Source: Arenibacter latericius DSM 15913
GTDB lineage: Bacteria > Bacteroidota > Bacteroidia > Flavobacteriales > Flavobacteriaceae
NCBI RefSeq assembly: GCF_000424985.1
Contig: NZ_AUKX01000004.1
Coordinates: 110,986 to 174,985, forward strand
Direction of reading: 5' to 3'
Length of the DNA stretch: 64,000 nt
Part shown: piece by piece, positions 41,986 through 56,351 of the stretch
How the letters are laid out: each line of letters begins with the position of its first letter
Position numbering within the stretch: the stretch's first letter is position 1
Notes under the pieces: model-generated
What the model was told of the DNA's origin: nothing
Seen by the model: only the letters and a program-made list of their open reading frames with translations
Database searches by the model: none
Position numbers and translations under genes: made by a program

Positions 41986-42023
41986 GGCCCAGTGGAAGGG
42001 TAGCTGTCACCAGGGGCCATTTA
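41986..42023 (+). repeat. terminal inverted repeat, left end of transposon
   Basis: 38 bases starting GGCCCAGTGGAAGGG. Pairs with 56314-56351 at 35 of 38 positions (mismatches at repeat positions 7, 22 and 24). Length fits the classic 38-bp Tn3-family repeat; the outermost bases GGCCC replace the GGGG of Tn3 itself. Confidence 0.95.
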
Positions 42024-42343
42024 GGACATCTATTGCTCCTTGGCAAATAGGTCTCCATAGGTACCAAAGAACATGTTTTCGGAGGAATAATTTTCCTTGA
42101 AAATTTCAAATGCATTTTGAGTTATACCTGTTTGATAATAACGAATCTAACACCAAGTATTTGATATTTTTAACTAAGCTACGTAAAATCGCACATAAAT
42201 CGAATATTAAATTTAGTGCAATTTATCGTCTTATTCAATGATTTTTGACTCGATATGTCCTTAACCACCCTTGTAGAATGATAGAAGACGCCCTTAAAAA
42301 TGATACTTTCATTATCTTATTATTAAACAAAATATATGCAGGG
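42024..42343. other. left-end spacer of the transposon
   Basis: About 320 bases between the left repeat and the glycosyltransferase stop. Holds only the small coding remnant at 42030-42146. Confidence 0.5.
42030..42146 (-). pseudogene. coding remnant, about 38 residues
   Basis: The minus strand is open from 42146 to a stop at 42030 and reads a protein-like segment (RYYQTGITQNAFEIFK and then FFGTYGDLFAKEQ at the end), with no start codon at its head. It looks like the C-terminal end of a gene lost during assembly of the transposon. Family not recognised. Confidence 0.4.
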
Positions 42344-53376: not shown

Positions 53377-56316
53377 ATGAAAAGGAACTGGACCGCGGAC
53401 GAAATACTTGAATATTTTACCATACTCGAAAAGGAAATGGTCTTGGTCTCTGGTTTTAAGAACACAGGAAAGCTCGGGTTTCTTGTGATACTCAAATTTT
53501 TTCAGATAGAAGCAAAATTCCCGGTAAGCAAAGAGGAGATCCCCTACGCCCTGATTCAATTTATCGCAAAGCAACTTCATTCTCCACTTCAAGATTTTGA
53601 TGACTATCCTTTGGATGGCCGAACTTTTAAGCGGCATAAAAATCTAATACGAGAGCATTTCGGTTTCAGGATTTCTACCATAGAAACATACAAGGAGGTT
53701 GCACTATCATTAAAAATGCTCGATAAATGGCACGATAAGAAAAAAATTAGGGCCGAAGCAATCGGATTGTACCGAAAACTCAAGGTTGAGCTGCCATCAT
53801 CCAACAGGTTGGACAAATTGGTCGATTCTGTTGTGAATGCAGGAGAACAACAATTCTTTGCGGAAATTGGAAAGAGACTATCATTGGGGACAAAGGAACG
53901 AATGGATGTATTTGTTGAATCCATTACCGATACCGGAGACGACAGTCCAACAATGAGCCTAAATTCAATTAGAAGCGATCCTGGCAGAATCGGTCTCGAA
54001 AGTATTTTTGGGGAGATGGACAAGTTAATTGCCATTAGATACCTAAAAATCCCCGATAATCTGTTCGCCTCTACACCTTTTGGAATTATTGAGAAATACA
54101 GACTAAGGGTCGCTTCGGAACTCTTGGGGGAAATCAGGGCGCATCCGGACGATATCAGGCATACCCTTTTGTCGATTTTCTTTTGGACCAGAAGTCGGGA
54201 AATTACCGATAATTTGGTGGAGTTATTGATACAGGTCGTACATAAGATATCCAATAATGCAGAGCAAAAGGTTGTCAAAGAATTCGTAAAGGACTTCAAA
54301 AAGGTATCTGGCAAATACAACATCCTTTTAAAAATGGCCGAGAATTCATTACGAAATCCCGACGGAACCGTTCGCGATGTAATATATCCCGTTGCCAAGG
54401 AAGAAACATTGCGGGATTTGGTAAAGGAGCTAAAAAGGAACCGCAATGCCTTCAAGGGTAGCGTTTTTACCAAGATATTGGCATCCTATTCCCGACACTA
54501 CCGTAAAATGCTGCCGGATATGTTGGAGATATTGGACTTCAAATCAAACAACGCAGTACACAGGCCGGTAATCGAAGCTTTGGAAATACTTCGCGAGCAC
54601 ATGGGTACAAAGGTAAAATATCTGGAAATTGACGGTTCAGTCCCCATAAACGGTATTATTAAACCAGGACAGAGAAAGGCCATGATACAAAAGGACGGGA
54701 ACGGCAATCGCATCATTAAAAAAATGGAATATGAGATATGTGTTCTCCAAACCCTCAGGGAAAAGCTAAGGTGCAAGGAAGTATGGGTGGACGGGGCAGA
54801 CCGCTATAGGAATCCCGAAGAAGATCTACCGCAGGACTTCGAGGAGAAACGCTCAGAATATTATACATCCTTGAACCGTCCTGAAGATCCGAGACCATTT
54901 GTCGACGGTCTGAAATCGGAAATGAAAAAATGGCTCTTTAAGCTCAATACATCCGTTTCCCAGGACCCGGATGTCAGAATTTCATCAACCAAAGGCGGAC
55001 GTATATCGCTTACGCCGTTCGAAAGGCAATCCGAATCAAAAAACATCGAGAGACTTAAGGAAGAACTGTTTCATAATTGGCCAATGATAAGCCTATTGGA
55101 TATTCTGAAGGAGACAGATCTAAGAATCCATTTTACGGACGTACTGCAGTCCTCGGCCGAAAGGGAAATAATTGAAAAATATACAAGAAGAAAAAGGCTC
55201 TTAATGGTACTCTTTGCCATGGGAACGAACACGGGTCTTAAAAGGATTTCCGGTTCCATTGGTAATCAAGTAACGTATGATAATCTTCGCTACATCAAGC
55301 GAAAGTATATCAATAAGGATAACCTCAGGAACGCCAATATTGAGGTGGTAAATGCGATACATAGTGCTCGTTTGGGGAATATCTGGGGCGAGGGTACTAC
55401 AAGCTGCGCTTCCGATTCCAAGAAATTTGGGGCATGGGACCAGAACCTGATGACCGAATGGCATATCCGATACAGAGGGAGGGGCGTAATGATCTACTGG
55501 CACGTGGAGAAAAAGTCAAGTTGTATATACTCCCAGTTGAAATCATGTTCCTCGTCCGAGGTAGCTGCCATGATAGAGGGCGTATTAAAACATTGTACCA
55601 GTATGGATATTGATAGAAATTACGTTGACACACACGGTCAAAGCGAGGTGGCTTTTGCATTCTCCCATTTATTGGATTTTTCGCTAATGCCTAGGTTCAA
55701 GAGTCTTTCCTCCAAAAAATTGTACTTGCCGAACAAAAGCATTAAGAAAGACCTTCCGAATCTTTTACCGGTTCTTACAAGAGGTATAGACTGGAGTTTG
55801 ATTGGCGAACAATATGACCAGATGATAAAGTATACGACGGCGTTAAAACTCGGAACGGCAAAGGCGGAGGCCATATTGAAAAGGTTTACCCGTAACAATC
55901 TGCAACATCCTACCTACAAGGCTTTACAGGAACTGGGAAAGGTCGTTAAGACCATATTTCTTTGCGAATACCTTACCTCAAAACCGTTAAGGATGGAAAT
56001 AAACCAAGGCCTGAACGTTGTAGAGAATTGGAATTCCGCGAATAGTTTTATCTTTTATGGAAAGTCCGGTGAAATGTCTACCAATAATTTAGAAGATCAA
56101 GAACTTTCCGTGCTTTGCTTACATTTATTACAAAACTCTTTGGTATACGTAAATACTTTGATGATACAGGAGATACTGACCAAACAAAAATGGAATAAAC
56201 TACTGGAGCCTGAGGATCTCAGGGCATTAACACCACTTATATATAAGCACATTAATCCGTACGGCAGATTTGAACTGGATATGGAAAAAAGAATACCGCT
56301 AAATTATTCATCATAA
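53377..56316 (+). CDS. tnpA: Tn3-family transposase
   Basis: 979 residues, near the usual 970-1000. N-terminal DUF4158 part (about 1-170; VSGFKNTGKLGFLVILKFFQIEAKFP). The C-terminal DDE domain shows first Asp D680 in SCASDSKKFGAWDQN, second Asp D751 in YVDTHGQSEVAF and Glu E883 in LNVVENWNSANSF, followed by a typical N-x-L-V-Y-V-N-T helix. The last codon and stop lie in the right terminal repeat, as in other Tn3 elements. All expected catalytic residues are visible, so it is probably active. Co-transcribed with the recombinase. Confidence 0.96.
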   Translation: MKRNWTADEILEYFTILEKEMVLVSGFKNTGKLGFLVILKFFQIEAKFPVSKEEIPYALIQFIAKQLHSPLQDFDDYPLDGRTFKRHKNLIREHFGFRISTIETYKEVALSLKMLDKWHDKKKIRAEAIGLYRKLKVELPSSNRLDKLVDSVVNAGEQQFFAEIGKRLSLGTKERMDVFVESITDTGDDSPTMSLNSIRSDPGRIGLESIFGEMDKLIAIRYLKIPDNLFASTPFGIIEKYRLRVASELLGEIRAHPDDIRHTLLSIFFWTRSREITDNLVELLIQVVHKISNNAEQKVVKEFVKDFKKVSGKYNILLKMAENSLRNPDGTVRDVIYPVAKEETLRDLVKELKRNRNAFKGSVFTKILASYSRHYRKMLPDMLEILDFKSNNAVHRPVIEALEILREHMGTKVKYLEIDGSVPINGIIKPGQRKAMIQKDGNGNRIIKKMEYEICVLQTLREKLRCKEVWVDGADRYRNPEEDLPQDFEEKRSEYYTSLNRPEDPRPFVDGLKSEMKKWLFKLNTSVSQDPDVRISSTKGGRISLTPFERQSESKNIERLKEELFHNWPMISLLDILKETDLRIHFTDVLQSSAEREIIEKYTRRKRLLMVLFAMGTNTGLKRISGSIGNQVTYDNLRYIKRKYINKDNLRNANIEVVNAIHSARLGNIWGEGTTSCASDSKKFGAWDQNLMTEWHIRYRGRGVMIYWHVEKKSSCIYSQLKSCSSSEVAAMIEGVLKHCTSMDIDRNYVDTHGQSEVAFAFSHLLDFSLMPRFKSLSSKKLYLPNKSIKKDLPNLLPVLTRGIDWSLIGEQYDQMIKYTTALKLGTAKAEAILKRFTRNNLQHPTYKALQELGKVVKTIFLCEYLTSKPLRMEINQGLNVVENWNSANSFIFYGKSGEMSTNNLEDQELSVLCLHLLQNSLVYVNTLMIQEILTKQKWNKLLEPEDLRALTPLIYKHINPYGRFELDMEKRIPLNYSS

Positions 56317-56351
56317 ATGGCCCCTGATGTCAGCTACCCTTCCATTGGGCC
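56314..56351 (-). repeat. terminal inverted repeat, right end of transposon
   Basis: Inverted copy of 41986-42023 with 35 of 38 matches; overlaps the tnpA stop codon. Confidence 0.95.

Follow-up and report, generated by a model that had tools for sequence, protein, structure and literature searches.

The locus raises the question of whether a single mobile element in Arenibacter latericius carries both its own transposition functions and a complete set of genes for a modified, exported peptide. We analyzed a 64,000-nucleotide stretch of DNA (the window), in which the features at and around the element were as follows.

41981..41985: left copy of the 5-bp target-site duplication TAGTA
41986-56351: complete Tn3 element, 14.4 kb
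41986..42023, plus strand: left terminal inverted repeat, 38 bp, matching its right counterpart at 35 of 38 positions
52687..52713: perfect inverted repeat of 11 bp, spacer 5 nt, a candidate site for resolution by the recombinase
52798..53373, plus strand: short tyrosine recombinase, 191 aa, in TnpI-like position (Phage_integrase PF00589, 69 bits)
53377..56316, plus strand: Tn3-family transposase TnpA (NF033527, 860 bits against a cutoff of 500; PF01526, 454 bits)
56314..56351, minus strand: right terminal inverted repeat, 38 bp
56352..56356: right copy of the 5-bp target-site duplication TAGTA
56357..56862, minus strand: 5' part of an interrupted CHRD-type host gene, whose 3' part lies at 41286-41985

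When the element and one copy of the target duplication were removed, the flanks formed a single open CHRD-type frame, and the CHRD gene was intact in a relative genome (G778; 1197 ungapped nt, 81%). With a DDE transposase, inverted repeats of about 38 bp, a 5-bp target duplication, and an empty site in relatives, the element is a real and complete Tn3-family transposon. For resolution, the tyrosine recombinase is present and the 11-bp inverted repeat is a candidate site only; the same repeat also scores as a terminator-like match. Because the Tn3 ends and enzymes enclose the cargo, the cargo would be movable as one unit, and the proposal of the initial annotation that one element unites a complete Tn3-family module with a peptide cargo was borne out by the repeats, the duplication, and the empty site. 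Its further proposal, that the peptide has been spread by a Tn3 transposon, was not: we found a single insertion, and 26 other loci that we examined gave no match to this TnpA or recombinase. Relatives of TnpA occurred in at least 5000 of 72,556 plasmid records, the best-ranked 20 being 50-55% identical, and 16 plasmid records had a TnpA match of 60-80%. Spread of the cassette by plasmids was considered and rejected, since its 347-aa protein, described below, matched none of the 72,556 records at E 1e-5; viral contigs gave no match to this protein and six weak matches to the neighboring glycosyltransferase.

All seven cargo genes previously noted were present where they had been placed, and the description of a Tn3-borne cluster with a Cys-rich GG-leader peptide, thiol-disulfide proteins, a C39 exporter, and a glycosyltransferase stands.

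42344..43912, minus strand: tandem GT-A glycosyltransferase, 522 aa, with an N-terminal galactosyltransferase/GalNAc-transferase-like domain and a C-terminal GT2 domain
43914..44957, minus strand: protein of 347 aa, with a half GT-B glycosyltransferase fold predicted for about residues 70-240 and a beta3-alpha3 tail
44970..46271, minus strand: HlyD-family adaptor (PF13437, 51.4 bits)
46273..48474, minus strand: peptidase C39 ABC exporter (PF03412, 117 bits; PF00664; PF00005)
48484..50043, minus strand: TlpA/thioredoxin-like predicted lipoprotein (PF13905, 46 bits; CIPC motif)
50234..50464, minus strand: precursor peptide with a 28-aa GG leader and a 48-aa core, six Cys
50579..52162, minus strand: fusion of a C39-like domain, VKOR, and thioredoxin (PF07884, PF03412, PF13462; CKFC and CGPC motifs)

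The precursor has Gly-Gly at residues 27-28 and Cys at 34, 38, 49, 58, 67, and 74; with a C39 ABC exporter encoded nearby, removal of the leader by that exporter is predicted. The calculated mass of the unmodified 48-residue core is about 4835 Da. It fell below the curated cutoffs of TIGR04149 (14.7 of 25 bits) and PF14406 (15 of 25 bits). In an alignment of 33 sequences the leader was conserved and the core hypervariable. No cargo protein matched radical SAM in Pfam. The initial annotation would have been refuted had precursor homologs never occurred with these genes, and this was not the case: the order VKOR-precursor-(TlpA)-ABC-HlyD-347 aa-glycosyltransferase was repeated in a Flaviramulus MAG (L003), which also holds LanC, and in a Muricauda MAG (L004), which has no TlpA; neither of these loci has a Tn3.

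We corrected the earlier description of the glycosyltransferase, which has two GT-A domains. In sequence, its C-terminal GT2 domain weakly matched SunS, ThuS, and GmaR, enzymes that act on peptides or proteins. The match to the SunS model (30.8 bits) was far under the equivalog cutoff of 350, and that to the ThuS entry was 7e-5, both covering residues 286-379; residues D319, D320, D372, D374, and E375 were invariant in all 54 aligned sequences (54 of the 120 relatives listed, from 373 found in total). With an AlphaFold2 model (pLDDT 92.3), the best Foldseek matches were chondroitin polymerase (E 3e-19) and heparosan polymerase (8e-14), followed by SunS (4e-10) and ThuS (2e-8), all with low whole-chain TM-scores of about 0.3. 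At E 1e-40 the enzyme was found in one of 395 genomes sampled across the phylum, that of the host itself.

Neither a second glycosyltransferase-like protein (347 aa) nor the RNA-like element described below had appeared in the initial annotation. The 347-aa protein (AlphaFold2 pLDDT 89.7) is predicted to adopt mainly a half GT-B glycosyltransferase fold, an assignment drawn from structure matches whose whole-chain TM-scores were low, about 0.3. It had previously been called PqqD-tailed; the gene is where it was said to be, and a PqqD identity of its tail was not confirmed. Neither Pfam nor NCBIfam gave a PqqD match for this protein or for any of 22 family members (the window's own among them, from 23 sequences less the fragment P0055), 4 of which matched an archaeal winged-helix model, at best with 3e-5. 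Profile comparison of the tail by hhalign with 29 PqqD-domain sequences (from 29 of 30 loci; L104, a cut locus without the sequence, was omitted) gave a probability of only 8.5% (P 0.004). The tail may nevertheless be a PqqD-like recognition element. Scanning of genome contigs with the family alignment gave two loci, and for 14 of the 22 relatives we infer, from contigs of equal length, a relative of the glycosyltransferase on the same contig, among the glycosyltransferase matches listed.

These results bear on whether the peptide is glycosylated at all. The most serious alternative, which we nevertheless consider rather unlikely, is that it is a disulfide-bonded bacteriocin without sugar and that both glycosyltransferase-like proteins decorate another target, for example, a surface glycan with a protective role for the producer. 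The backbone is indeed found more often without the pair than with it, VKOR-fusion matches of at least 40% identity being present in 10 of 24 other leader-peptide loci and the glycosyltransferase pair in none; the best structural matches of the glycosyltransferase are polysaccharide polymerases; and the gene content of the element revealed no other evident immunity gene. Against this, the pair lies directly behind HlyD in all three loci read, here inside the same transposon, and the C-terminal domain has the sequence matches to SunS, ThuS, and GmaR described above. As the pair occurs in two further loci but in none of the 24 leader loci, glycosylation seems to be an accessory to a more common disulfide-peptide platform; the same count, with the absence of the 347-aa protein from 396 of 397 genomes sampled from the family, indicates that the sugar step is not general.

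The initial annotation had called the peptide glycocin-like, which is apt for the logic of the gene set and not for membership. Glycocins carry a sugar on Ser, Thr, or Cys and have two CX6C helices with nested disulfides; this precursor has only one CX6C and a different Cys pattern and, given also the SunS score, was rejected as a glycocin. Three disulfides could take up all six Cys, in which case no Cys would be free for an S-linked sugar; an O-linked sugar would thus be at least as likely.

Peptides with GG leaders and C39 exporters also serve as signals. It is conceivable, and we think unlikely, that this peptide acts as a signal or at a surface instead of as a bacteriocin, a reading consistent with the acidic core (charge about −4) and with the lack of an evident immunity gene. 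The combination of a conserved leader and a hypervariable core in the 33 sequences is what diversifying selection on a weapon might produce, however, and mobility would suit a selectable weapon; both argue for a bacteriocin.

Upstream of the precursor we found a conserved element, which ends 14 nt before the ATG.

50479..50549, minus strand: conserved 71-nt element, predicted RNA fold of a three-way junction and a pseudoknot
50551..50572, minus strand: perfect hairpin that closely precedes the RNA core

A covariance model of the element detected at least 45 copies in 23 chosen genomes, 43 of them preceding genes with a GG-type leader and 34 of these 43 lying 14-18 nt from the start codon. At most 150 or 96 candidates were scored per genome, so that copy counts are lower bounds, and some comparisons took only the matches of an earlier search, or loci known to match RNA model R1 or lying at its new genome matches. 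The host genome had one copy at E up to 1 (E 6e-13); at least 7 of the 24 leader loci had no RNA match. In a MAFFT alignment of nine copies 94.4% of cells were paired, and the measure of further pair types was not above chance (111/500). With 39 sequences, 90.6% of cells were paired, 15 of 20 pairs had double changes, and G-U pairs were retained at many positions; the covariation was reached by none of 500 shuffles, and slid versions gave 30-55%. The structure itself guided the fitting of alignments A6 and A7, which are biased in its favor. Minimum-energy folds agreed with the structure in all three sequences folded, the centroid fold of the third being different. Covariation of the element is strong. 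No Rfam family reached half its gathering score with the window stretch and five relatives. The accessible text of two catalogs of flavobacterial RNAs (PMC2864571, PMC9723704) ties none of them to GG peptides, and the element may be present, unnamed, in their supplements.

Could the element act as single-stranded DNA, as a site of recombination or core exchange? Its position before hypervariable cores and its clustering, with four copies in locus L159, would fit such a role, which we regard as improbable: the near-fixed distance to the start codon and the retained G-U pairs favor an RNA. A role of the hairpins solely as a terminator that insulates the precursor from VKOR is highly improbable, for although the upstream one scores as terminator-like on the plus strand, no U-run follows it on the sense strand, and the conserved part is the junction and pseudoknot, which also occurs without a VKOR-fusion match within about 10 kb, at 13 of 20 loci.

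Judging from gene content, a complete Tn3 transposon probably carries a cargo that would make, oxidize, likely glycosylate, and export a six-Cys peptide, probably antibacterial, whose translation would be under RNA control. The RNA-like element would permit translation of the precursor, and the leader would be recognized, a task for which the 347-aa protein's tail is a possible candidate. The two-domain glycosyltransferase would place one sugar on the core and then extend it with a second; the C39 exporter and HlyD would cut after Gly-Gly and take the core out of the cytoplasm, and the VKOR-thioredoxin fusion and the TlpA-like lipoprotein would form or proofread up to three disulfides. More tentatively, and with some doubt, we suggest that the element represents a new class of pseudoknot cis-regulators switching on disulfide-rich GG peptides of flavobacteria from several unrelated leader families, and that a transposon carrying one, together with a two-site glycosyltransferase pair guided by a recognition element and building a short glycan, might be the first self-contained jumping glycopeptide-bacteriocin cassette. 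The cassette combines three features that, to our knowledge, have not been described together: a mobile set of genes of the weapon type, a peptide from a Gram-negative phylum with predicted sugar and disulfides, and a structured RNA. The RNA model serves both as an entry point to regulation and for genome mining, detecting by structure such peptides as the protein profile had missed: 23 of the 43 downstream peptides carry leaders unreported by the precursor profile.

How does the cassette compare with known systems? Tn3 transposons of the Tn4430 type encode a TnpI tyrosine recombinase just upstream of tnpA. The element shares with them this placement of the recombinase gene, in the same orientation as tnpA, and a candidate site ahead of that gene; it differs in that the recombinase is only 191 aa and the cargo is a peptide cluster. 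With the chondroitin and heparosan polymerases K4CP and PmHS2, its best structural matches at a low whole-chain TM-score, the glycosyltransferase shares two GT-A domains per chain, but the sequence of its second domain also has matches to SunS and ThuS, and its gene context is peptide export, not capsule. The leader style is that of the TIGR04149/PF14406 Bacteroidetes GG peptides, although the precursor is under both cutoffs and the cargo has no radical SAM match.

Among the best-matching titles and abstracts, from which subscription papers were mostly absent, none described a glycosylated peptide cluster on a Tn3 element or an RNA of this kind, and the accessible parts of two surveys, of the family's clusters and of mobile genes near lanthipeptides (PMC10734526, PMC12715929), describe no such cassette. 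Bacteroidales RiPP regions with a peptide S-glycosyltransferase domain (PMC10352776) likewise have a predicted peptide glycosyltransferase in Bacteroidota peptide clusters, and some hold LanC, as does L003; in the text accessible they combine radical SAM and LanC, neither matched in the window's cargo, and mention no Tn3. Bacteroidetocins (PMC6671954) share a Bacteroidota GG-leader peptide, a double-glycine peptidase exporter, thiol oxidoreductases, and likely disulfides; as they have leaders of 15-16 aa and four Cys, and their accessible description mentions no sugar, the present peptide, with a 28-aa leader, six Cys, and glycosyltransferases, does not fit that group. Close in logic are the glycocins sublancin, glycocin F, and thermoglycocin (PMC12457901), which, as far as that source is accessible, have in common with the cassette a C39-exported precursor, thioredoxin-like thiol proteins, a peptide glycosyltransferase, and a Cys-rich core. 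The same source gives five Cys for earlier characterized glycocins and seven and eight for its own two; here there are six, differently spaced, and the exporter is accompanied by HlyD, a VKOR fusion and a two-domain glycosyltransferase with a half GT-B protein are present, and the whole is carried by a Tn3 transposon.

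The conserved RNA-like element that precedes the precursor gene lies in the cargo of a Tn3-family transposon, with these features:

41986-56351: Tn3-family transposon
Within it, + strand: TnpA and a 191-aa tyrosine recombinase (transposition module)
Within it, − strand: cargo, comprising a fusion of a C39-like domain, VKOR, and thioredoxin (window 50579-52162), precursor, TlpA-like lipoprotein, C39 ABC exporter, HlyD, 347-aa protein, and 522-aa glycosyltransferase
50479-50549, − strand: RNA-like element, 14 nt before the precursor ATG

The transposon has 38-bp terminal inverted repeats (35/38 identical), is flanked by a 5-bp duplication, TAGTA, and interrupts a CHRD-type gene in contig C4 of the 4.48-Mb host genome; without the element, the flanks form a single frame. 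An intact copy of this gene, which marks the empty site, is found in relatives, for example genome G778 (81% over 1197 nt, ungapped), and 10 of 18 congeneric genomes, host counted, carry its 5' part. Both flanks have a G+C content of 0.35, against 0.40 for the cargo and 0.43 for the transposition module. TnpA is rare in the family: at E 1e-100, 2 of 397 genomes gave a match, namely the host itself and another genome with 48% identity. We infer that the element is mobile at the present day.

The precursor consists of a GG leader of 28 residues and an acidic core of 48 residues with six Cys. The leader, MKKLSLKNLKL..LQREQLK.VFGG, was common to the precursor and 32 relatives; their cores diverged widely. 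The named relatives were from flavobacteria, including Muricauda, Arenibacter, Maribacter, and Gelidibacter, and a contig scan gave two loci, in Flaviramulus and Muricauda MAGs; the host is therefore probably also a flavobacterium. Residues 9-122 of the VKOR fusion aligned to the C39-like profile only from position 19, leaving the peptidase profile start uncovered; this N-terminal domain is perhaps a leader-binding domain.

Matches to the leader profile were present in 20 of 397 family genomes, host counted. At the 24 other leader loci, the VKOR fusion was matched at 40% identity or more in 10 (one of these partial), and the glycosyltransferase pair (522-aa and 347-aa proteins), TnpA, and recombinase in none. 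The slot behind HlyD held a single-domain glycosyltransferase followed by a Lant_dehydr_C-like protein at L040 (3018-4991) and, at L036 (15335-17289), a similar module whose second protein had no Pfam match. In the same slot, locus L041 had a GT4 and a weak LanC-like match (13806-14777), and the Flaviramulus MAG locus (L003) a LanC-like protein (12590-13657) after the glycosyltransferase pair; among the proteins scanned, no lanthipeptide dehydratase was recognised in either cluster. These arrangements suggest a common peptide-export-and-oxidation platform with swappable tailoring genes, of which the transposon caught one version. At L037:8400-11832, the VKOR fusion is truncated, the precursor stops five residues past GG, and an RNA copy has no peptide gene behind it; this cluster is apparently decaying.

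The RNA-like element is conserved and shows covariation. A leader pattern applied to 27 sources found nine precursor-upstream stretches in all, and these were mutually alike. Three sequences folded singly (z −2.5 to −4.1) shared one minimum-energy fold, made up of a hairpin plus a three-way junction, from which the centroid fold of the third departed; third-hairpin loop bases could pair with the strand past the junction, forming a pseudoknot. In a MAFFT alignment of the nine, 94.4% of cells were paired and seven pairs had double-sided changes, values reached in 0 of 500 shuffles; further pair types were not above chance (111/500 shuffles). With 39 sequences, 90.6% were paired, with double changes in 15 of 20 pairs, and for the pseudoknot 95.3%, with double changes in all four pairs; these sequences were aligned to the model, so that the alignment favours it, and the structure was drawn from the same sequences, which tilts the slid controls towards it as well. 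RNAalifold, which cannot draw pseudoknots, recovered on its own from 25 sequences the third hairpin and nothing else, and no Rfam family reached half of its gathering score. Directly before the RNA core is a hairpin at window 50551-50572, terminator-like in the window only on the opposite strand; of 29 upstream 40-nt stretches before RNA copies, 25 had folding energies of −6 kcal/mol or below, without comparison to shuffled sequences.

The host genome yielded a single match to the covariance model, R1 (E 6e-13); at E ≤0.1, R1 found at least 45 copies in 17 of 23 chosen genomes. The 23 comprised 19 with leader matches, of which 17 had the RNA (absent from G061 and G069), three without (G212, G373, and G050), and G778, outside the leader search listing; the last four gave no match. 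Behind 43 of the 45 copies (exceptions, G162:C11:27964 and G288:C5:570259) was a GG-type leader gene at 8 to 46 nt, 14-18 nt in 34 of 43. Variants included cut sites GS, GY, and GAGG (one each) and two truncated peptides of 33 and 34 residues. The precursor profile, in a search scoring at most 14 candidates per genome, did not report 23 of the 43 leaders (e.g., MKSLFNLGGVK... and MKKSILNLGR...). Among 20 further RNA neighbourhoods, a VKOR-fusion relative (26-48%) lay within ~10 kb in seven, and a close exporter (62-65%) was present in three. Against this association, the RNA was missing from 7 of the 24 leader loci, and an eighth, L055, had only a weak match (E 0.045). In 51 other genomes of the class, none was found at E 0.01 under stricter filters; the RNA was therefore observed only within the family and in the Flaviramulus and Muricauda MAG loci (L003 and L004). 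At L148/L159 (G288:C5 ~568868-570321), several GG-type small peptide genes and four RNA copies adjoin a VKOR-thioredoxin relative.

The individual parts of the cassette are of known kinds. Among the titles and abstracts listed in literature searches, none showed this assembly of parts, the paired glycosyltransferases, or the RNA, and the RNA attached to the cassette is a candidate new RNA family. The cargo would be transcribed, perhaps under RNA control, and its product glycosylated, disulfide-bonded, exported, and presumably antibacterial. According to PMC12457901, glycocins characterised before that report have five Cys, whereas the cargo core has six; as six Cys can pair off into three disulfides with none spare, the sugar would more likely be O-linked or the core only partly oxidised.
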